From a bacterium (GTDB taxonomy: Bacteria; Bdellovibrionota_G; JALEGL01), in the NCBI GenBank assembly GCA_022763185.1, contig JALEGL010000015.1:62001-126000 (forward strand): a DNA stretch of 64,000 nucleotides, read 5' to 3'. Made by a program: the position numbers and the translations under genes. Positions 4,159-16,718 of the stretch are shown in pieces. The notes under the pieces are model-generated. The model worked only from the letters and a program-made list of their open reading frames with translations. It was not told the DNA's origin and made no database searches. Position 1 is the stretch's first letter, and every line of letters starts with the position of its first letter.

Positions 4159-5277
4159 ATGGCAAATGAATTAGAAATTAAGGGTTTTGATTTTGTAGAG
4201 TTTTATGTTGGCTCGGCCAAAATGGTAGCCTACTGGTATGTTAAAGCCATGGGTTTTGATATTGTAGCTTATCAAGGGCCTGAAACAGGCTTTAAAGATA
4301 AATGCAGCTACTATTTAAAACAAAATGACATACACATTGTTCTGACCTCACCCTTGTCGCCTGCCTTTTGGGAAGCCACTTATTTCCTTAATTTACACGG
4401 GGACGGCGTTAAACGCTTTGGCTATCAAGTCAGCGATGTTGAAGCCTTATTTGACCATGCCATCAACAGCGGCGGTATTCCCATCAAAAAACCAAGTGTT
4501 GCAAAAGATGCGCAGGGTGAAGTTCTGTCTGCAGCCTTAAAAATTTACGATGATACTGAAATTATTTTATGCGATCGCAGTCAATACCAAGGTTTGTTCA
4601 TGCCTGGCTTTGATGAACCCAGACAAAAACTTAACATTGAACGCCAAGAAACCGGCTTACAAAAAATTGATCATATTGTGGGTAATGTCAGACAAAATGA
4701 GATGAACCGTTGGGCAGATTATTTTATTAGAGCTTTTAACTTTGAGCAGTTCATTGAATTTGGCCCTGGTGATATTTCAACCCAATACTCCGCCCTTTTA
4801 TCGAAAGTGGTAAAAAGCCATGATTTTGCCATTCGCAACCCCATCAATGAACCCTACGAAGGCAAAAGAAAATCACAAATTGAAGAGTACTTGGATGTAT
4901 ACCATGGCAGTGGTGTTCAACACATTGCTCTAGAATCTGATGATATTATGGCAAGCATTCAAGCATTGCGCAGCAACGGCATTGAATTTTTAAGCGTTCC
5001 GCAAACCTATTACGATGAATTAAAAAAGCGTAACCCAGGCATTGTAACAGAAGACATTGATGCTTTGGCCGATTTAGGTATTTTATGTGACATAGAAGAC
5101 CTAGCCGGTGGAGAAGGTTATTTGCTGCAACTCTTTACCAAGCCCATTGGTGATAGACCGTCTTTCTTTTATGAAATCATCCAGCGCCGCAAGGGAAGTC
5201 AAGGCTTTGGTCAGGGCAACTTCCAAGCTTTGTTTGAAGCCATAGAGCGTGATCAAGAAAGCAGAGGAAACCTTTAA
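4159..5277 (+). CDS. hppD: 4-hydroxyphenylpyruvate dioxygenase
   Basis: A 372-residue non-heme Fe(II) enzyme that converts 4-hydroxyphenylpyruvate to homogentisate in tyrosine catabolism. The vicinal-oxygen-chelate fold shows as two half-domains. The three iron ligands are visible: His172 (IDHIVGNV), His255 (VQHIALES) and Glu339 (FFYEIIQRR). The C-terminal GFGxGNFxALFEAIExxQ helix is the family hallmark. AGGGAGAATAT precedes the ATG. Its stop codon overlaps the ATG of the homogentisate dioxygenase gene by one base, so the two are translationally coupled and act on consecutive intermediates. Confidence 0.97.
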   Translation: MANELEIKGFDFVEFYVGSAKMVAYWYVKAMGFDIVAYQGPETGFKDKCSYYLKQNDIHIVLTSPLSPAFWEATYFLNLHGDGVKRFGYQVSDVEALFDHAINSGGIPIKKPSVAKDAQGEVLSAALKIYDDTEIILCDRSQYQGLFMPGFDEPRQKLNIERQETGLQKIDHIVGNVRQNEMNRWADYFIRAFNFEQFIEFGPGDISTQYSALLSKVVKSHDFAIRNPINEPYEGKRKSQIEEYLDVYHGSGVQHIALESDDIMASIQALRSNGIEFLSVPQTYYDELKKRNPGIVTEDIDALADLGILCDIEDLAGGEGYLLQLFTKPIGDRPSFFYEIIQRRKGSQGFGQGNFQALFEAIERDQESRGNL

Positions 5278-6467
5278 TGCCGTTTTATTATCAGCAAGGT
5301 GATATCCCCAAAAAACGGCATATTGCTTTTTACAAGAAACAACAGAATAAAAAAGATGGAAAAAGTTTGTATCGCGAAGAGCTTTTCAGTACCCAGGGTT
5401 TTTCCAGCATATACAGCAACCGCTACCGTTTGGACATGCCCACCAAAGTCAGTTCCATTGCCCATGCTCAAAACTTAATGCAAATGCAAACTTGGCAGGA
5501 TGTGCCTTTGATGTGGCACTTGTTTCATAGTTCAAGGCAGGAAAGCTCTGGCAGTCTCCATCAAGCCCAAACGCTGTGGATGGAAAACCATAACTGTACA
5601 ATTTTAACCAGTTCCCCTACAGAAAAATGCACTAACTTTCACAAAAATGCACATGAGCATCTGCTTGTTTTTATTCATCGTGGTGAGGGAACTTTTTTAA
5701 GTGAGTTTGGCAACCTTGTATTTACAGAAGGGGATTATATCATTATTCCCAAGGGCTGCATTTATCAATTTCAGTTTACAGCGCAAGAGAACCGTTGCTT
5801 CATGGTTTTATCTGATACTGCTTTTGATATTCCCAAACATTTTCGCAATGATATGGGCCAGCTTATGGAAGATGCTCCCTATTGCGAGCGCAATTTAAAG
5901 CTGCCTGTATTGCAAGAAGCCATCAATGAAAAAGGCAGCTTCCCGGTTCACATCAGTTGTAAATATGCTCAAGGAAGAAAAACCTACACGCATGTTTGGG
6001 ATCATCATCCTTTTGATGTCGTGGGCTGGGATGGTTGTGAATATCCCTTTGCTTTTAACATTAAAGACTATGCCCCTAAAGTGGGCGCCATTCACTTGCC
6101 ACCTCCTGTACATCTTGTATTCACCACTCAGCATTTTGTGGTTTGCAATTTTGTTCCGCGCTTGTTTGATTTTTATCCAGGCGCCATTCCCGCACCGTAT
6201 TTTCATAGCAACGTGGATTCAGATGAAGTTATTTTTTATGCAGATGGCGATTTCATGTCACGCAAAGGCATAGAACCTGGCTCCATCTCTTACCACCCCA
6301 TGGGCATCGCCCACGGTCCACAGCCTGGCAAAACTGAGGCTTCCATTGGCCAAAAAGAAACCCATGAATATGCGGTGATGGTGGATACTTTTGCACCCTT
6401 AAGTTTATCCAAAGAAATTCAAGCGGTGTCTGACCCCAATTACTGGCGCTCTTGGAGTGAAGATTAA
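5277..6467 (+). CDS. hmgA: Homogentisate 1,2-dioxygenase
   Basis: A 396-residue cupin-type Fe(II) ring-cleavage dioxygenase that opens homogentisate to maleylacetoacetate. The C-terminal region holds the metal-site signature: HSNVDSDEVIFY, with the His and Glu, followed by SYHPMGIAHGPQPG. It is shorter than the ~440-residue human and Pseudomonas type, a length also seen in other bacterial homologues. The ATG overlaps the hppD stop codon (TAATG). The aminotransferase gene starts 3 bases after its stop, so all three genes form one operon. Confidence 0.93.
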   Translation: MPFYYQQGDIPKKRHIAFYKKQQNKKDGKSLYREELFSTQGFSSIYSNRYRLDMPTKVSSIAHAQNLMQMQTWQDVPLMWHLFHSSRQESSGSLHQAQTLWMENHNCTILTSSPTEKCTNFHKNAHEHLLVFIHRGEGTFLSEFGNLVFTEGDYIIIPKGCIYQFQFTAQENRCFMVLSDTAFDIPKHFRNDMGQLMEDAPYCERNLKLPVLQEAINEKGSFPVHISCKYAQGRKTYTHVWDHHPFDVVGWDGCEYPFAFNIKDYAPKVGAIHLPPPVHLVFTTQHFVVCNFVPRLFDFYPGAIPAPYFHSNVDSDEVIFYADGDFMSRKGIEPGSISYHPMGIAHGPQPGKTEASIGQKETHEYAVMVDTFAPLSLSKEIQAVSDPNYWRSWSED

Positions 6468-6470
6468 GAT

Positions 6471-7586
6471 ATGTCCAAGGTCAATTTATTTATTCCTCAA
6501 CATATTCAAGATTTGCGCGCTTACAAGGCTGGTAAAAGTTTAGAGTCACTCAAAGACAAACGTGGCTTGACCAAATTTGCTAAACTGGCATCCAATGAAA
6601 ATCCTTTAGGACCATCGCCCAAAGCTATGGATGCAGCAAAAAAATGCTTGGAGCAATTGCACCTTTATCCTGACCCTGCCAGCTATGCCTTAAGGCAAGC
6701 TTTGGGAAACCATTTAAATCTTGATCCTCATCAGATTATCTGCGGTTCAGGGATTGACTCATTGCTGGCTTATATTTTTATGGCCTTTAGTGAAAAAGAT
6801 GATGTTATTCTTACCTCCAAAGGCAGTTTTATTGGCACTTATGTCAATGCCAAAAAACTAGGCCGGACTTTAAAAACCATTCCGCTAAACACCTGGGCTT
6901 ACGATCTCGATGCCATAGCTCAATCCATCACGGACAATACTCGCATCGTTTATTTGGCCAACCCCAACAACCCCACCGGGTCAATGATTGGCAAAACGGA
7001 TCTGAAAACATTTTTAAATGCTGTTCCGGATAATGTTTTAGTGATTTTAGATGAAGCCTACTATGAATACGCCTGCCATCATGAACAGTATCCCAATGGC
7101 ATTGAATTGCTGAGCGATCATTCCAACCTTATTATCACTCGCACCTTTTCCAAAGCCTATGGGCTTGCAGGCGCTCGCATTGGCTATGCCATGGCAAATG
7201 CATCTGTTATTGATACCCTCAACAGAGTTAAATTACCCTTTGAGCCTAGCCGCATGGGCCAACACATGGCCATGGCCGCTCTTGCAGACACTTCTTTTTT
7301 ACATCAAACTCAAGAGCTTAATAAAGAAGGTTTAGAGTATTTTTATCAATCTTTTACTGAGCTTGGCTTATCTTTTGTCCCAAAAACCGGTTCCAATGCC
7401 ATCATGCTCTATTTTAAAAATGCTCAAATAGCTCAGGATTTCTATCATGCGTGCTTTAATCAAGGTTTAATTTTAAGACCTCTAAATGCTTTTGGCTTTG
7501 ATCAAGGCATAAGAATCAACACCGGTACACAAGACCAAAATGTTTTTGCCATTGAAGTGATGAAAAAAGTTTTAATGCAAAAATAG
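6471..7586 (+). CDS. HisC-like PLP aminotransferase, probably aromatic/tyrosine
   Basis: A 371-residue fold-type I aminotransferase of the histidinol-phosphate aminotransferase family. Visible hallmarks are SNENPLGPSP near the N-terminus, ANPNNPTG, LDEAYYEY and the PLP-lysine motif TRTFSKAYGLAGARIGY. By sequence alone it could be HisC. Its position 3 bases after hmgA argues that it makes 4-hydroxyphenylpyruvate from tyrosine, the first step of the same pathway. No histidine-biosynthesis genes are nearby. HisC-like enzymes are known to act on aromatic amino acids, so this assignment is a context-based inference. Confidence 0.85.
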   Translation: MSKVNLFIPQHIQDLRAYKAGKSLESLKDKRGLTKFAKLASNENPLGPSPKAMDAAKKCLEQLHLYPDPASYALRQALGNHLNLDPHQIICGSGIDSLLAYIFMAFSEKDDVILTSKGSFIGTYVNAKKLGRTLKTIPLNTWAYDLDAIAQSITDNTRIVYLANPNNPTGSMIGKTDLKTFLNAVPDNVLVILDEAYYEYACHHEQYPNGIELLSDHSNLIITRTFSKAYGLAGARIGYAMANASVIDTLNRVKLPFEPSRMGQHMAMAALADTSFLHQTQELNKEGLEYFYQSFTELGLSFVPKTGSNAIMLYFKNAQIAQDFYHACFNQGLILRPLNAFGFDQGIRINTGTQDQNVFAIEVMKKVLMQK

Positions 7587-7755
7587 CCAAGAATCAGCCT
7601 TAATGTAATTTTTATTGCTTATGCACAAAGCTCATGAGACATCCATGCACCTAAAATTCTGCCCAATACCCCACAAGCTATAATTTTAATTCCGCTTTTG
7701 CAAAGCTAAGCACCTAAATACATTAAGTATTTTACCTAAATATTTTTTTGAAATC

Positions 7756-7771
7756 TGGCCTACATTTTGCT
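7756..7771 (+). promoter_or_regulatory. Sigma-54-type promoter for the secreted Gly-rich protein
   Basis: TGGCCTACATTTTGCT has GG and GC doublets exactly 10 bases apart and matches 14 of the key -24/-12 positions except the AC after TGGC. It sits 50 bases before the gene at 7821, leaving room for a ~38-base leader with a ribosome site (GAGGGGAAA). Confidence 0.5.
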
Positions 7772-7820
7772 AATAAGCATTGCATAATAAGAATACAAAC
7801 AATTTCGAGGGGAAATAATA

Positions 7821-8459
7821 ATGATCAAAACAATACAAATTAGTTTTGCGCTTCTGATGCTGCCTTTTATAGCTTTTTCTGAACAGTTTAAAAGCTATGA
7901 GGAGCTGGAACAGCAATTTAATGAGGACCTTAAACAAGCTGTGCTAAAAAAAGAGATTTCTGAAAAGGACACTACACAGATTTATGATCAACTCGATGTG
8001 CTTGTAGAGAATAAGCTTATCGATTTGAATCGAAGCACGCGTTTTTACCTATGTGCCGGGGCAGCTTTGAACATTGCCTATGTTTTTGAAGTTTTTCAAG
8101 GAAAATGGTGCAGCAGTTTAAATGGTTACCCAGGCATAACACTGACTGCCGGACCAGAGTCTTTGTTATCTGAAGATAAAGAGGCTGAACTTTTGGGCGG
8201 CATTGGACTTGCCAGTGCTCCAGCACAAGCTTATGGCGGCGTTTCTCTTGCTGTTTTTATGGGAGAAGGGGAGCCTGAGGGCATTTATTTCGGTGGGCAA
8301 GGAAGAGCTGCCGGCGTACTCTACGGCGGTGAAGGCATGCTGCTGAATAGAGAAGGCAATAGAGATAAGAGTGTACTTCCTGGAACAATTATTTTAGGCG
8401 GTGTTGGCGTAGGTTCTCCAGGCGGAGTCATAAGCTCAATCAGAATGAGAGTAGAATAA
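7821..8459 (+). CDS. Secreted protein of unknown function, Gly-rich C-terminal half
   Basis: A 212-residue protein with a signal peptide (MIKTIQISFALLMLPFIAFS, cleaved near Ser-Glu). A charged helical segment follows (residues ~22-70), then a Gly-, Ala- and Leu-rich region with repeated GG pairs (LLGGIGLASAPAQAYGGVSL, YFGGQGRAAGVLYGGEG). Two Cys lie in the middle part. I recognise no family. It has a strong ribosome site, a sigma-54-type promoter and a good terminator downstream, so it is a single-gene unit despite lying between the two tyrosine-degradation blocks. The Gly-rich part could be a beta-structured or membrane-associated domain. Confidence 0.7.
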   Translation: MIKTIQISFALLMLPFIAFSEQFKSYEELEQQFNEDLKQAVLKKEISEKDTTQIYDQLDVLVENKLIDLNRSTRFYLCAGAALNIAYVFEVFQGKWCSSLNGYPGITLTAGPESLLSEDKEAELLGGIGLASAPAQAYGGVSLAVFMGEGEPEGIYFGGQGRAAGVLYGGEGMLLNREGNRDKSVLPGTIILGGVGVGSPGGVISSIRMRVE

Positions 8460-8565
8460 GACTAAAGCTTAATGCACTGTGTGTGAATTCACAGTCTATC
8501 TTAAAATAAAGTTCTAAAGAAAGTGTATTTGATAAGCGCTTTTTTAAGTTCTAATAAGGATCCTC

Positions 8566-8594
8566 AAAGCCCACTTTAAGCAGTGGGCTTTTTT
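8566..8594 (+). terminator. Intrinsic terminator
   Basis: AAAGCCCACT and AGTGGGCTTT form a perfect 10-bp stem with a 6-base loop, followed by Ts. It ends the transcript of the secreted protein at 7821. The rest of 8460-8827 shows no gene or other element that I can support. Confidence 0.85.
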
Positions 8595-8827
8595 ATGGCC
8601 TAATGCAAGAGTTTGTGATTTCTTAACTGCATTTATTTAGATGGCTATTCCCTTTTTATAAAAGTGTTTTGTTTTAAGCATGCATCCGGAGCTTGGTCAG
8701 TAAGCCTTAAACAGCATTTCTACTTTTTAATTTTCATCCATGACCAATGAAAATAATGCTGCAGCAAAAGAGCGGAACCATGCAATCAAGAAGTGGCACT
8801 TAAAGAAGTTTTTCAAACGGCCATCGT

Positions 8828-9628
8828 TCAATGAATAAGCGATGAACTGCATGATTTTGGGATAGGGACTTCACGGTACGGGCTTTTTATTTTTAGGTGC
8901 TCGAGTATTTTATTATCTAAGATGGTGCCAAGACTTTCTTGAATTGACCAAGCTGAAGGTAGATACGATAGGTCCCATTCAGAATACGTATCTTCTGAAT
9001 AACTTTCACAAGATTCGCTGCTCTTAAGAGTGTTGCAACAAATCTGTTGTCCGTTAGGTGCTACTTCAATTGGGTTATCCACTGCACCCAAGAGATAAAA
9101 AAAATAAATCAGTCTTGATTGAAAATCTTGTGCTGAGTTTTTCCATGCACGCGATAGTTGGTAATTGCCTAAAAATGACCCTAGCAAGTTTGATGTAAGA
9201 TCTTCATAAGAAAAAGGACCTACGTTTATATCTCCCGAAGCATATTCATTGCATTGTTTTATTTCTAACAACTCTCCAAATTTAAGCACCGTCATGTCAG
9301 GTGGAATGTTGGGCAATATATTTAAAGATGACACAAGCGAGTAGTACATTCCATGGTATTGAGCAAAAGCAAACATCGAAATATGCCTTAAGTCTAGCCA
9401 TCCCCACCTTTTAGAATAGACATACCGATAAGTTTCACCCTCAAAATGATTGGCTACACCAGAGGTAAACCCTCCATAATGGTAATCTAAATCCAAAAGT
9501 GAATCTATCTCAGATGCTACTAATTTTTCTTTTAGCGCTGACAGGCCAATAACATGTTCACAAATAGGCTTTGCCATTAGCAAAGAATTTATAAGAAATA
9601 CTCCAAATATAAAATATTTTTTTAACAT
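8828..9628 (-). CDS. Secreted protein of unknown function
   Basis: A 266-residue protein. The ATG at 9628 is preferred over an in-frame GTG six codons earlier because it gives a compact signal peptide (MLKKYFIFGVFLINSLLMAK). The mature part is rich in aromatic residues (YHYGGFTSGVANHFEG, KRWGWLDLRHISMFAFA). It has several Cys, including a CC pair and two more close by (QICCNTLKSSESC), which suggests disulfides in the periplasm or outside the cell. I do not recognise the family. It is transcribed opposite to the flanking tyrosine genes. Confidence 0.6.
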   Translation of the reverse strand: MLKKYFIFGVFLINSLLMAKPICEHVIGLSALKEKLVASEIDSLLDLDYHYGGFTSGVANHFEGETYRYVYSKRWGWLDLRHISMFAFAQYHGMYYSLVSSLNILPNIPPDMTVLKFGELLEIKQCNEYASGDINVGPFSYEDLTSNLLGSFLGNYQLSRAWKNSAQDFQSRLIYFFYLLGAVDNPIEVAPNGQQICCNTLKSSESCESYSEDTYSEWDLSYLPSAWSIQESLGTILDNKILEHLKIKSPYREVPIPKSCSSSLIH

Positions 9629-9791
9629 GCGATTTTTCAATATCACATTTAAGGCATTATGTGCTGTCTTTTTTATGCTTTGCGCCAGTTGAAGCTGTTC
9701 AAGTTTTCTTTACTGCTGATGATTATGTGTTAAGTATGTAGATACAGAATCACTAAAACAGATGTAAACCCTATATTTAAGGATAAATCGT

Positions 9792-10799
9792 ATGAAACTC
9801 GTCAGTTTTCTAAATTCTTACAATAAAGAACGTGCAGGTATCTACCTTGAAGATCTGGGGTGTTTCGAGCTTTATCACAACGGTCAAAACCTGGGTTTAG
9901 ATCTGCCTAAAAATATGAACCAGTTTTTAAACCAAAGTGACATTTTTTTAGAACGTGCACAAAAATTGGAAACAGCTATATTGCATGCCCCTAGCGATTT
10001 TTCAAAAGAAAAGGTTTCATCTTTGCTTTCACCGGTTCCGCAGCCAACATCTTGCCGAGACGCTTATGCTTTTAGGCAACATGTCCAAACCATGCGCGCC
10101 AATCGTGGTGCAGAGATGATTCCTGAGTTTGATGAATTTCCCGTGTTCTATTTCACCAACCACAATGCTGTATTTGGCGAAGGCCCCATTGAGGTTTACG
10201 ATGACCACTTGGATAAGTTGGACTTTGAATTGGAAATTGCTGCGGTCATTGGCAAGGGAGGCAAAAATATCCCGGCTCATAAAGCCGATAAGCATATTTT
10301 TGGTTTTATGATTATGAATGATCTATCTGCCCGAACTTTGCAAATGCAAGAGCTTAAGCTGAGCTTGGGACCAGCCAAAGGCAAAGACTTTGCCAATTGT
10401 TTTGGTCCGTGGCTGGTGAGCAAAGATGAACTTCAAACGCTTGCGCAAGATACCGGCCAGGGCCTGACCTACAACCTAGAAATGAAAGCTACGCTCAATG
10501 GCAAGCTTATCTCACAGGGCAACATGAACAGCATGCACTGGACCTTTGCCCAAATCATTGAACGCGTTTCTTATGGCGTAGAGCTTTATCCTGGAGACAT
10601 CATTGGCTCTGGCACCGTGGGTACAGGTTGCTTAGGAGAAATCAATGGTACGGCCAGCTTACGCGCCAAAGAAAAAGGTGAAACTTACACGCCCATCTGG
10701 CTCAAAGACAAAGACACCATAGACTTGGAGATTACGGGTTTAGGAAAATTGAGCAACACATTGATCCTTAAAAACGCATCGTACCACATATTAAAATAG
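9792..10799 (+). CDS. fahA: Fumarylacetoacetase (FAA hydrolase family)
   Basis: A 335-residue enzyme of the fumarylacetoacetate hydrolase family that splits fumarylacetoacetate into fumarate and acetoacetate, the last step of tyrosine breakdown. The metal-site region is clear: FELEIAAVIGKGG, then MNDLSART and the Lys in GPAKGKDFANCFGPW. The GSGTVGTGC loop near the C-terminus is typical. Other family members hydrolyse or decarboxylate different diketo acids; the neighbouring hppD and hmgA make fumarylacetoacetase by far the likeliest. A ribosome site (AAGGATAA) precedes the ATG. The flavin-reductase-like gene follows after 15 bases. Confidence 0.92.
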   Translation: MKLVSFLNSYNKERAGIYLEDLGCFELYHNGQNLGLDLPKNMNQFLNQSDIFLERAQKLETAILHAPSDFSKEKVSSLLSPVPQPTSCRDAYAFRQHVQTMRANRGAEMIPEFDEFPVFYFTNHNAVFGEGPIEVYDDHLDKLDFELEIAAVIGKGGKNIPAHKADKHIFGFMIMNDLSARTLQMQELKLSLGPAKGKDFANCFGPWLVSKDELQTLAQDTGQGLTYNLEMKATLNGKLISQGNMNSMHWTFAQIIERVSYGVELYPGDIIGSGTVGTGCLGEINGTASLRAKEKGETYTPIWLKDKDTIDLEITGLGKLSNTLILKNASYHILK

Positions 10800-12449: not shown

Positions 12450-12466
12450 ATGATTTAATAAATCAT
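12450..12466. promoter_or_regulatory. Perfect palindrome, candidate operator of the 13-aa ORF / ComQ-like unit
   Basis: ATGATTTA-a-TAAATCAT is a perfect 8-1-8 inverted repeat lying 22 bases upstream of the -35 box at 12489, the usual place for an activator or repressor site. The stand-alone winged-helix protein encoded at 13747-14031 is a natural but untested candidate to bind it. Confidence 0.4.
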
Positions 12467-12488
12467 AAATATTACTTATAAAAAACGC

Positions 12489-12517
12489 TTTACATTAATT
12501 TTTATTAATAGTAGCGT
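12489..12517 (+). promoter_or_regulatory. Promoter of the 13-codon ORF
   Basis: TTTACA (12489-12494), a 17-base spacer, then TAGCGT (12512-12517). The start point would be near 12524, just ahead of the AAAGGTGG ribosome site. The -10 box is a weak match, so activation may be required. Confidence 0.45.
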
Positions 12518-12540
12518 ATCTTCAAGAAAGGTGGAACACA

Positions 12541-12582
12541 ATGAAAATTACTAAAGATATTTTTACCAACTTACCTTGGTAA
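12541..12582 (+). CDS. 13-residue ORF ending Pro-Trp (leader peptide or signal-peptide precursor)
   Basis: ATG to TAA encodes MKITKDIFTNLPW. It has the best ribosome site in the neighbourhood: AAAGGTGG with a 6-base gap. Its last codons lie in a perfect 7-bp hairpin, TTACCAA (12563-12569) with TTGGTAA (12576-12582). An intrinsic terminator follows 15 bases later, then the ComQ-like prenyl transferase gene. Two readings are possible: a leader peptide governing attenuation of the downstream gene, or a very short substrate whose Trp is prenylated, as ComQ does to the Trp of ComX in Bacillus. ComX precursors are much longer (~55 residues), so the second reading is speculative. Confidence 0.5.
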   Translation: MKITKDIFTNLPW

Positions 12583-12596
12583 CATTAATTAAATTG

Positions 12597-12654
12597 AGCC
12601 ATAGACCTTCTGACTTGAGCTTTTTGCGTAAATCATGAGGCCTGTGGCTTTTTT
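12597..12654 (+). terminator. Intrinsic terminator/attenuator before the ComQ-like gene
   Basis: AGCCATAGACCTT (12597-12609) pairs with AGGCCTGTGGCT (12638-12649) with one mismatch. Inner TGA/TCA pairs extend the stem, and five Ts follow. It lies between the 13-codon ORF and the gene at 12675, which has no promoter or ribosome site of its own, so read-through here would set expression of that gene. Confidence 0.7.
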
Positions 12655-12674
12655 ATGTTTAAAACCAAACGCTT

Positions 12675-13652
12675 ATGTCTGACCCACTTATAAAAGAAAT
12701 TCTTTCATGCCCAGAACTTCAAGCTTGGCCAAATTTGGAGCCAATTTTAAGCAAAAGAAAACCTGGAACAGTTGCCTTATTTAAAATTGCTAGAGAAGCT
12801 AGCGGCAATATTTTAATTGACAGTTTGCCGATTGAAGCCGCAATTGTATGTTTTACCATCAACTGTATACTCATTGATGATGTTCTCGATGATGATGCAA
12901 AAGGTATCTGGCAAGATTATGGCGCTGGCCGCGTTGCCAACTTAGCTGCAGCTTTACACGCACGACAGCAAACACTCATTTATCACTCAAATTTTTCAGA
13001 CCCTCAAAAACAAGCAATCATGTTTCATTTAAATCAGATGAAACTCAAAGAAACCATGGCTCAAGAAATGGCCACACAAAATCCTCTAAGCATGAATCAA
13101 TATTGGGAGATTGTGCATGGAAAAAGCGGCAATGTATGCGCAACCGCCATGAAGCTGGGTGGATTACTGGGTGGAGCAGATCAAAACCAAAAAGAAGTGT
13201 TGTACACAATTGGCAAAAACCTTGGAGAAGTGGGTCAAATATCCAATGATCTTAGAGGCGCTTTTGATGAAAGCATCAACCCAGATTGGGCCATGCCTGG
13301 CTGCAGCTTGCCTATTTTAATTACTTTGACAAATCAACATCCTCAGTTGGATGCCTTAAAACAACTCATTGATAACGGCATTCACAGCACAAGCGAACTG
13401 AAAAAAGCGCAGGATATCCTTTTAGAATCCGGAGCCGTTAGCTTATGCTGCGAACATATTGCACAACGTTTAGAGCTTATGTACGAAGGCCTATGTCAAT
13501 GCACCTTAGATAACAAAACCCATCTTATTAAAAACATTGGTGGAGACATCAAGCATGCCATTGCCTGGGTTAAAGATCTGGATACCCAACTGCTAAATGA
13601 AACCCTTGAAACATTAGATGCTTTGGATGAAAAACTAAGTTTTTTCTGCTAA
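12675..13652 (+). CDS. ComQ/polyprenyl-synthase-like protein (class I isoprenoid transferase)
   Basis: A 325-residue all-alpha protein of the trans-isoprenyl diphosphate synthase superfamily. The first Asp-rich motif is present (DDVLDDD, residues 68-74). The conserved GKSGNVCATAMKLGGLLGG helix follows at ~149-167. The second motif is degenerate, QISNDLRGAFDE (188-199), instead of DDxxD. A degenerate second motif suggests a ComQ-like peptide prenylase or a modified synthase rather than an ordinary chain-elongating GGPP/octaprenyl synthase. The gene has no visible ribosome site and starts 20 bases after an attenuator-like terminator, which ties it to the 13-codon ORF upstream. No other isoprenoid genes are nearby. 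An ordinary prenyl synthase remains possible. Confidence 0.7.
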   Translation: MSDPLIKEILSCPELQAWPNLEPILSKRKPGTVALFKIAREASGNILIDSLPIEAAIVCFTINCILIDDVLDDDAKGIWQDYGAGRVANLAAALHARQQTLIYHSNFSDPQKQAIMFHLNQMKLKETMAQEMATQNPLSMNQYWEIVHGKSGNVCATAMKLGGLLGGADQNQKEVLYTIGKNLGEVGQISNDLRGAFDESINPDWAMPGCSLPILITLTNQHPQLDALKQLIDNGIHSTSELKKAQDILLESGAVSLCCEHIAQRLELMYEGLCQCTLDNKTHLIKNIGGDIKHAIAWVKDLDTQLLNETLETLDALDEKLSFFC

Positions 13653-13746
13653 ATTTAAATGCGCTATGAACGCTGTACAATACAATAGTTTGTTTTACCA
13701 ACTGTAATGCGCTAAGCATTGACTACTGTTCACATGTTTTTATAAA

Positions 13747-14031
13747 TCAGATCTTTAGACAAATTGATTTATTACGGTCTGAAAAAATTATTTTTTTCGA
13801 CGTCTGTTCAAAAATTTTGCGCTTTAGCCGAGACAGCGCAACATCAAGATGATTGTTGTAATAGTTTATTAAGTTTTTCTTGTTGGTCCAAATTTCAAAA
13901 ATTATTTTTTCACGTTTAATTTTATTCATTTTTTCTTGAAGCAAAAGATATAAAATTTGTACTTCAATAGATGTCAATTGAATGACTTTACCTTTAACTA
14001 TTAAAGTTTTTTTAACTGGATTGAGCTTCAT
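13747..14031 (-). CDS. Stand-alone OmpR/PhoB-type winged-helix DNA-binding protein
   Basis: A 94-residue protein consisting only of a C-terminal-effector-type winged helix: IQLTSIEVQILYLLLQ, then REKIIFEIWTN, and the recognition-helix/wing part HLDVALSRLKRKI. There is no receiver domain. Start 14031 is chosen because AGGAAAA precedes it and because an earlier in-frame ATG would lie inside a terminator stem. It converges with the ComQ-like gene. It is very Lys- and Ile-rich and AT-rich compared with housekeeping genes here, which may mean transfer. It could regulate the neighbouring ComQ-like unit or the secreted protein upstream; neither is shown. Confidence 0.75.
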   Translation of the reverse strand: MKLNPVKKTLIVKGKVIQLTSIEVQILYLLLQEKMNKIKREKIIFEIWTNKKNLINYYNNHLDVALSRLKRKIFEQTSKKIIFSDRNKSICLKI

Positions 14032-14059
14032 GATTTTCCTATTGTTTTTTTCAAACAAA

Positions 14060-14103
14060 GTCTTACAAGAAAGATTTATTTTTATAATTCTTCCTTGTAA
14101 GAC
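14060..14103 (-). terminator. Terminator after the secreted Cys-rich protein gene
   Basis: On the minus strand GTCTTACAAGGAAGA pairs with TCTTTCTTGTAAGAC (14 of 15 matched plus a wobble) around a 14-base AT loop, followed by TTTG. It separates the gene at 14122-14778 from the winged-helix gene. Confidence 0.7.
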
Positions 14104-14121
14104 ACCTAACAAAATATTTTT

Positions 14122-15338: not shown

Positions 15339-16718
15339 ATGTACAAAACCATCATTGAACCGTTTAGAGTTAAAACCGTTGAACCGATTAAAATGACCTC
15401 GCAAAAAGAGCGTGAGTCTATTTTAAGACAAGCCCATTACAATTTATTTTTGATTAAAGCTGAAGATGTCATGATTGACCTTTTAACCGATAGCGGCACC
15501 GGCGCCATGTCTGGGGCACAGTGGGCAGCGATGATGGAAGGCGATGAATCCTATGCCGGCAGCCGCTCTTACTATGCATTTGAAAAAGCAGTCTCTGACT
15601 TAACCGGCTTTAAGCATATTTTTCCAACCCACCAAGGCAGAGCGGCTGAAAGAATTTTATTCTCTATTGTGGGTGGTCAGGGCAAATCTATCCCCAACAA
15701 CACCCACTTTGATACCACCCGAGCCAATATTGAACACACACAAACCGCAGCCGTTGACCTTATGCCAGAAAGTTCTAAAGATACCCGCAGTTATGCTCCG
15801 TTCAAAGGCAACATGGATCTTGATAAATTAAAGCAGTTCATTCAAGACACTGGTGCTGATAAAATACCTTTGTGCATGCTCACCGTGACCAACAACAGTG
15901 GCGGTGGCCAACCGGTATCCATGCAAAATATTCGTGAAGTAAAAGCAGTTTGCCAACAACACAACATACCGCTGTTTTTAGATGCCTGTCGTTTTGCAGA
16001 AAATGCCTACTTTATAAAATTGCGTGAGCCCGGCTATGCCGACAAAAGCATCAAAGCCATTGCCCAAGAAATGTTTTCTTATGCCGATGGCTGCACCATG
16101 AGCGCCAAAAAAGATGGTATGGTTAATATGGGTGGTTTTTTGGCCTGCAATGATGACAGCTTGGCAGAAAACATTCAGGAGCTGGAAATTTTAACTGAAG
16201 GCTTTCCCACCTATGGCGGCTTGTCTGGTCGTGATTTAGGCGCTTTGGCGCAAGGCTTAAAAGAAGTGCTGGAAGAAGATTATTTGCAGTATCGGATTCA
16301 ATCTACTCAATATTTAGGCAACGGTTTAAAAACGGCTGGCATTCCCATTGTTGAACCCACCGGCGGTCATGCAGTCTACATTGATGCCAAAGCCTTTTTG
16401 CCTGAGATTCCAGCGCATCAATTGCCCGCACAATCGGTGGCCAATGCACTCTATGTATTAGGCGGAATTCGTGGCGTAGAAATTGGCACCTTGATGTTTG
16501 GCCGACCCAATCCTGAAACAGGCATAGATATTCCAGCGCCCATGGAACTGGTGCGCTTGGCCATACCCAGAAGAATGTATACTCAAAGTCATGTCGATTA
16601 TGTTATAGAAGTGGCCCATGAACTGGTTAAACAAAAAGATTCTTTACATGGCTACACCATCACCGAACAAGCCAAAAGTCTAAGGCACTTTTCTGCCAAG
16701 CTTGCGCCTTTTTCCTAA
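15339..16718 (+). CDS. tnaA: Tryptophanase
   Basis: A 459-residue PLP beta-eliminating lyase that splits tryptophan into indole, pyruvate and ammonia. It shows the family landmarks IDLLTDSGTGAMS, PTHQGRAAE, FLDACRFAENAYFIK and the PLP lysine in MSAKKDGMVNMGG. It could be confused with tyrosine phenol-lyase. The residues that separate the two favour tryptophanase: FDTT (an Asp where TPL has Thr) and VEIG (no Arg as in the TPL motif MERG). The C-terminus LRHFSAKL is also as in TnaA. No TnaC-like leader peptide or Trp permease is adjacent, unlike in enterics. Confidence 0.9.
   Translation: MYKTIIEPFRVKTVEPIKMTSQKERESILRQAHYNLFLIKAEDVMIDLLTDSGTGAMSGAQWAAMMEGDESYAGSRSYYAFEKAVSDLTGFKHIFPTHQGRAAERILFSIVGGQGKSIPNNTHFDTTRANIEHTQTAAVDLMPESSKDTRSYAPFKGNMDLDKLKQFIQDTGADKIPLCMLTVTNNSGGGQPVSMQNIREVKAVCQQHNIPLFLDACRFAENAYFIKLREPGYADKSIKAIAQEMFSYADGCTMSAKKDGMVNMGGFLACNDDSLAENIQELEILTEGFPTYGGLSGRDLGALAQGLKEVLEEDYLQYRIQSTQYLGNGLKTAGIPIVEPTGGHAVYIDAKAFLPEIPAHQLPAQSVANALYVLGGIRGVEIGTLMFGRPNPETGIDIPAPMELVRLAIPRRMYTQSHVDYVIEVAHELVKQKDSLHGYTITEQAKSLRHFSAKLAPFS

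Follow-up and report, generated by a model that had tools for sequence, protein, structure and literature searches.

A 13-codon open reading frame (ORF13) that ends in a Trp codon, an intrinsic terminator and a gene for a ComQ-like prenyltransferase follow one another on the same strand of a 64,000-nucleotide stretch of bacterial DNA, hereafter called the window (GTDB lineage Bdellovibrionota_G; JALEGL01). Comparison with homologous loci in Anaerolineae (Chloroflexota) marks this locus as a pared-down outlier within a ComQX(P)-like family. On balance, we lean toward reading the unit as a reduced ComQX-type pair, in which the 13-residue peptide would be prenylated on its C-terminal Trp by the enzyme, with a leaky terminator between the two genes.

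A short Trp-ending ORF, a terminator and a prenyltransferase gene

The unit comprises the following features, numbered by position in the window:

12528..12534, forward strand: Shine-Dalgarno (SD) sequence AAGGTGG, 6 nt 5' of the ATG (anti-SD duplex -7.2 kcal/mol)
12541..12582, forward strand: 13-codon ORF encoding MKITKDIFTNLPW, with a TAA stop and a C-terminal Trp; proposed miniature acceptor peptide, whose position matches that of the Trp-tailed peptides in 24 homologous loci
12596..12654, forward strand: intrinsic terminator, a long imperfect hairpin (12596-12650) plus T6 (12649-12654); -25.9 kcal/mol, z -4.8; equivalent terminator in 18/24 homologous loci
12675..13652, forward strand: 325-aa ComQ-like (trans-IDS-like) prenyltransferase, assigned from PF00348, signature residues, tree and AF2 model

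Among 131 intergenic ATG-initiated ORFs of 8-50 codons in the window, ORF13 is the sole one with an SD this strong, and equal or better SDs precede 9 of the 48 large genes. Between the upstream gene and the enzyme gene, ORF13 alone carries a strong SD, the runner-up (-5.6 kcal/mol) falling within the end of the terminator. Shuffled sequences are 13 kcal/mol less stable than the terminator hairpin, and none of them (0/200) equals it; the enzyme ORF begins 20 nt past the terminator with no SD (+1.5 kcal/mol). These results partly confirm the unit as it was observed in a preliminary description of this DNA. The 13-codon ORF with an excellent ribosome site, the intrinsic terminator after it and the polyprenyl-synthase-like gene 20 bases farther on without a ribosome site are all present; the promoter that had been placed upstream of ORF13 was not recovered by a consensus scan, which gave one site in the region (at 13654) versus 7.2 expected by chance.

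Because 7 of the 615 intergenic small ORFs on the contig (1.1%) end in Trp, the terminal Trp of ORF13 taken alone amounts to a coincidence of about 1 in 90. Its codon may also be partly fixed by RNA structure, since the last two codons of the ORF, UGG UAA, sit in a 7-bp hairpin (UUACCAA-CUUACC-UUGGUAA, -5.7 kcal/mol). A T-box was considered for the leader because the SD resembles the T-box core; Rfam gave no match to a known RNA at the gathering score, and its single match was at chance level (E = 4).

The preliminary description had also raised a peptide-controlled transcription attenuator, in which the position of the ribosome on the ORF13 Trp codon would decide whether the terminator forms and would thereby control the downstream gene. 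The layout has the outline of such a device, with a short ORF, a single Trp codon 14 nt 5' of a strong terminator and a gene behind that lacks an SD. However, pairing of the ORF13 region with the two terminator arms is not above chance (as low in 259/300 and 169/300 shuffles), and one Trp codon only is present. The proposal finds no support in the predicted pairing, and we consider it very improbable.

No SD-driven ORF was found downstream of the enzyme gene, where comX lies in ComQXPA systems, and the 266-kb contig holds no other SD-driven, Trp-tailed small ORF fit as a precursor, the others being a MazE end and a 20-mer. A Trp-rich 45-aa candidate on the contig proved to be the C-terminal portion of a MazE-like protein. 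The same contig carries a likely MazEF toxin-antitoxin pair (L121, 7072-7688, reverse strand), whose antitoxin-like protein terminates in WDENEWQW.

Signature residues and phylogeny of the enzyme

The enzyme matches Pfam polyprenyl_synt (PF00348) with 50.7 bits (cut-off 27), and normal synthases in four relatives from the phylum score far above this, at 165-220 bits. An AF2 model built from a four-row alignment (mean pLDDT 79, pTM 0.79) adopts the isoprenoid-synthase fold and compares with solved polyprenyl synthases at TM values of about 0.63-0.76. The NCBIfam match pattern of the enzyme is that of genuine ComQs. Its best match in that collection, the family 2 encapsulin cargo polyprenyl transferase (NF041169), was rejected as an identity because it reaches 57 bits against a cut-off of 450 and because true ComQs match the same entry likewise.

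Signature residues were tabulated for 43 canonical enzymes, four plasmid ComQs (each with comX adjoining), five other ComQ-like proteins and the Anaerolineae family. The window enzyme has a FARM (LIDDVLDDD, residues 66-74), a GQ (187-188), a pseudo-SARM (NDLRG, 191-195) and a family-specific Trp at position 205. It shares the PF00348 fold, the FARM and the conserved Lys and Gln with canonical trans-isoprenyl diphosphate synthases (IspA, IspB, GGPP synthase), but departs from the canonical pattern of HDDxxD...RR, KT and FQxxDDxxD. Four diagnostic positions are absent from it, as from ComQ, namely the pre-DD His (present in 43/43 canonical enzymes), the Thr of KT (43/43), the aromatic F/Y of FQ (43/43) and RR (41/43). 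In addition, the first SARM Asp is replaced by Asn, as in 3/4 of the ComQs, and the sequence QISNDLRG bears out the degenerate second Asp motif described earlier. W205 occurs in the window enzyme and in 24/24 members of the Anaerolineae family and in 0/43 canonical enzymes. By its sequence, the window enzyme is not a chain-elongating synthase.

ComQ prenylates the Trp of ComX. ComQ from the ComQXPA systems of Bacillus (IPR033965) resembles the window enzyme in its intact FARM, in having Asn for the first SARM Asp (in three of the four examined), in the absence of RR, in KS for KT and in the lack of F in FQ. According to a review, ComQ-like enzymes have repurposed the SARM to recognise Trp (PMC13290415).

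An earlier tree was replaced by one that includes the Anaerolineae family, because long branches had come together in the first version. In the new tree the window enzyme is sister to all 24 Anaerolineae enzymes (100/99), apart from 14 canonical synthases; it stands outside the canonical enzymes yet not within the ComQ clade, and its branch is long (1.88). Firm grouping with chain-elongating synthases, which had been named beforehand as an outcome that would speak against the proposal, does not happen.

These data also bear on the possibility that the enzyme is the cell's diverged house-keeping farnesyl or polyprenyl diphosphate synthase, with ORF13 and the terminator serving as a leader. Such a role is conceivable because the assembly yielded no further trans-prenyl synthase: the enzyme is the sole PF00348 protein found there, yet UppS, which needs FPP, is present. 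However, the pre-FARM His, RR, the Thr of KT, the Phe of FQ and the first SARM Asp are all lost, and the tree puts the enzyme firmly outside the canonical group. Furthermore, ispA adjoins xseB in three relatives from the same order, with tlyA close behind, and none of xseB, ispA and tlyA was found in the window's assembly, the tlyA result being weaker since that query was run without a positive-control genome. Because both neighbours are missing as well, the lack of ispA is most simply explained by one assembly gap, and a house-keeping role for the window enzyme appears quite improbable.

Close relatives of the window enzyme were found neither in a single-protein scan of genome contigs nor among viral contigs, and a domain-wide sample of 385 genomes likewise gave none (top score 39 bits). 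A plasmid search returned one weak Streptomyces match only. When 84,980 species genomes were scanned with a three-row alignment, one much closer homologue was detected, in an Anaerolineales MAG (locus L059; 35% identity, 109 bits). No second member of the window subtype, that is, the enzyme together with a 13-mer, was found in the collections searched, and the source bacterium belongs to a barely sampled phylum.

Several other ComQ-like loci were observed. In an Elusimicrobia MAG (L060, 4145-7780), a ComQ-like enzyme gene lies behind three tandem Frankia_peptide-like precursors (two checked with Pfam, under the cut-off), of which two carry DWNLPDEQ or DWSLPDEQ, and it is followed by a gene whose 712-aa product combines cNMP-binding and PqqD-like domains. 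A Priestia megaterium plasmid (NZ_CP045273) carries an unannotated ComQ-like gene (L058, 3486-4493), whose product is 28.6% identical to a Deltaproteobacterial enzyme (L027/L061). A plasmid of Stenotrophomonas rhizophila (CP031730; L052) has a comQXPA locus with a gene order up to comX as in a Lysinibacillus plasmid (L053), and is possibly a contaminant replicon in the Stenotrophomonas assembly.

ComQX(P)-like loci in Anaerolineae

A profile made from the window enzyme and its L059 homologue was run on 396 Anaerolineae genomes. This search recovered L059 and 24 further strong members (L067-L090; 154-282 bits), the next scores being 106, 103 and then at most 97. L090 was excluded from the counts because its gene is split at a contig edge, and the loci counted are thus 24 (L059, L067-L089). 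The window enzyme is about 30% identical to the family over its full length and has the motifs AWP, DDxLDxD, YW, NPDW and AQxIL..GAVS in common with it, but the Anaerolineae enzymes keep the SARM Asp where the window enzyme has Asn.

In all 24 loci, an SD-driven ORF lies directly upstream of the enzyme gene on the same strand and encodes a peptide of 48-68 aa (89 in L083) with a Trp in its C-terminal part; tails include ...TSWMGWGY, ...ALGWSAWW, ...SWVGWR and ...VPSWF. The Trp is found within the last 12 residues in 22/24 peptides, within the last three in 16/24 and at the very end in 2/24. Four of the peptides are alignable and have dN/dS values of 0.11-0.20. A terminator hairpin occupies the gap between peptide and enzyme in 18/24 loci (at most 1/100 shuffles as good). 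The window locus agrees with the family in its order of peptide, terminator and enzyme on one strand, in its strong SD and in the Trp at the peptide end. The earlier proposal of a ComQ-like transferase paired with a Trp peptide is therefore strengthened by its sister enzymes, each of which follows such a peptide. These homologous loci further count against attenuation, because their peptides are long and under purifying selection where tested, yet the terminator is present too.

In contrast, the peptides themselves differ. The window peptide has 13 aa rather than the length range given above, and the Anaerolineae peptides carry a conserved [MIVL]xxF leader, often with WxxW, to which the 13-mer has no significant match: its best score is -3.9 bits versus at least 9.5 in members, and 24% of shuffles equal it. 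A MAFFT alignment that matched F and W suggested that ORF13 is homologous to the N-terminal end of the longer peptides, but this reading was rejected because the test proved not significant. The preliminary description had held that relatives with the enzyme gene but no ORF, or with non-conserved codons, would speak against its reading. No relative with the gene and without an ORF was seen, but the ORFs of the relatives far exceed ORF13 in length and do not conserve the PW codons.

A kinase homologous to the ComP-like sensor kinase of L059 is present in 19 of the 21 Anaerolineae loci with longer flanks. Seven loci combine a NarL-type kinase with a REC-LuxR regulator, and the remaining kinase loci, where checked, have a HisKA kinase. 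Both types share a homologous membrane sensor half, which is weakly homologous to ComP of Anoxybacillus as well (for L103, 62 bits across most of its length). Among L059 (2443-6610) and L096-L115, complete ComQXPA-like loci, with kinase, Trp-tailed peptide, ComQ-like enzyme and LuxR-type regulator, were seen beside loci of the second type with the HisKA kinase. A second enzyme subgroup in Anaerolineae (L091, L092) has upstream peptides of 85-86 aa with DYAWALP or EIGWPL near the end.

Judged by their gene content, the Anaerolineae loci represent ComQX(P)(A)-like modules that lie beyond the Firmicutes, and their enzymes form a previously undescribed family whose members likely prenylate peptides. 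No prior report of such modules was found in the open-access literature; a ComQXPA census lists none outside Firmicutes (PMC4008528), and for Chloroflexi the kinase-regulator pair alone is given (PMC8895600). The earlier statement that known ComQX systems are Firmicute thus agrees with the literature but is overtaken by the Anaerolineae loci. Because these enzymes adjoin Trp-tailed peptides and sensor kinases, lipid-peptide signalling in the style of Bacillus probably extends well beyond Bacillus and its kin.

A candidate minimal prenyl-peptide pair

Unlike the Anaerolineae loci, the window locus has no adjoining ComP-like kinase. A sensor-domain profile gave no match in the window's genome (97% complete), and three positive controls matched with 480-572 bits. 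No homologue of the ComA-type (REC + LuxR) regulator of L059 was found on the 266-kb contig. Convergent with the enzyme gene is a gene (13747-14112, reverse strand) for a solo OmpR-type DNA-binding domain with no receiver. Likely tyrosine catabolism genes (HPD-like, HmgA-like, FAH), a HisC-like aminotransferase and a beta-eliminating lyase (tryptophanase or tyrosine phenol-lyase) lie near the locus (4159-10799 and 15339-16718).

As in ComQXPA, a small peptide gene with a Trp codon at or near its end adjoins the enzyme gene. However, the ComX precursor is encoded downstream of comQ, whereas the window peptide is encoded upstream with a terminator between; the peptide has 13 aa versus 51-56 aa in ComQXPA (a ComX precursor of about 50-70 aa being expected), and the two enzymes fall in different clades. 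PalQ/PalX, a RiPP system of Paenibacillus alvei that was set beside the window by description, has its acceptor Trp at the very C-terminus, as proposed for the window, and an enzyme of the isoprenoid-synthase superfamily. It differs in the NHLP leader of PalX, the PalP kinase in the cluster and the retention of both SARM Asp residues in PalQ. PalQ is strict in its need for a C-terminal Trp, and in vitro the octapeptide DNVRRFFW by itself serves as its substrate (PMC10853753).

In the reduced ComQX-type pair that we favour, a single transcript would encode the very short peptide, behind a strong ribosome site, and then the prenyltransferase, with a leaky intrinsic terminator between the two. 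Most transcripts would stop past the peptide and few would read through to the enzyme, resulting in much peptide per enzyme. The retained first Asp motif may hold an allylic diphosphate (geranyl, farnesyl or longer), and the parts for IPP chain elongation are lost. The prenyl group would then be put on the C-terminal Trp of the 13-mer, comparable to the action of ComQ on the ComX Trp and of PalQ on a C-terminal Trp. The 13-mer is probably the acceptor of the enzyme. With ComP lacking, the product may act via another sensor or inside the cell, or may have no signal role.

A different explanation, which we regard as unlikely though of appreciable weight, is that the enzyme is a ComQ-like peptide prenyltransferase with another substrate (a peptide, free Trp or a small molecule), and that ORF13 is a decayed longer precursor or a chance ORF. 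The leader found in all relatives is missing from ORF13, the enzyme's branch is long, and the lack of a ComP-like receptor in the genome would fit a decaying system; moreover, the related enzyme Ord1 farnesylates free Trp (PMC13290415). Against this, ORF13 is in the expected position, is followed by a terminator and retains both a very strong SD and the terminal Trp; no alternative precursor of this kind was seen on the contig. Tentatively, and with less confidence than we place in the reduced pair itself, the locus may represent the smallest ribosomal prenyl-peptide system, one in which a leaderless 13-residue product is prenylated directly on its C-terminal Trp and used without a ComP-type receptor, within an undescribed ComQX(P)-like family outside Firmicutes.

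The Anaerolineae peptide-enzyme-kinase modules, found in about 6% of the sampled genomes (24/396), are a larger result than the window locus. Should the 13-mer prove to be the substrate, the window locus would define the minimum for a prenyl-peptide system, with a substrate that is cheap to synthesise and test. The new branch joins a small set of Trp-prenylating enzymes, which are wanted as peptide-lipidation tools, and the Anaerolineae modules would give a mostly uncultured group a peptide pheromone language.
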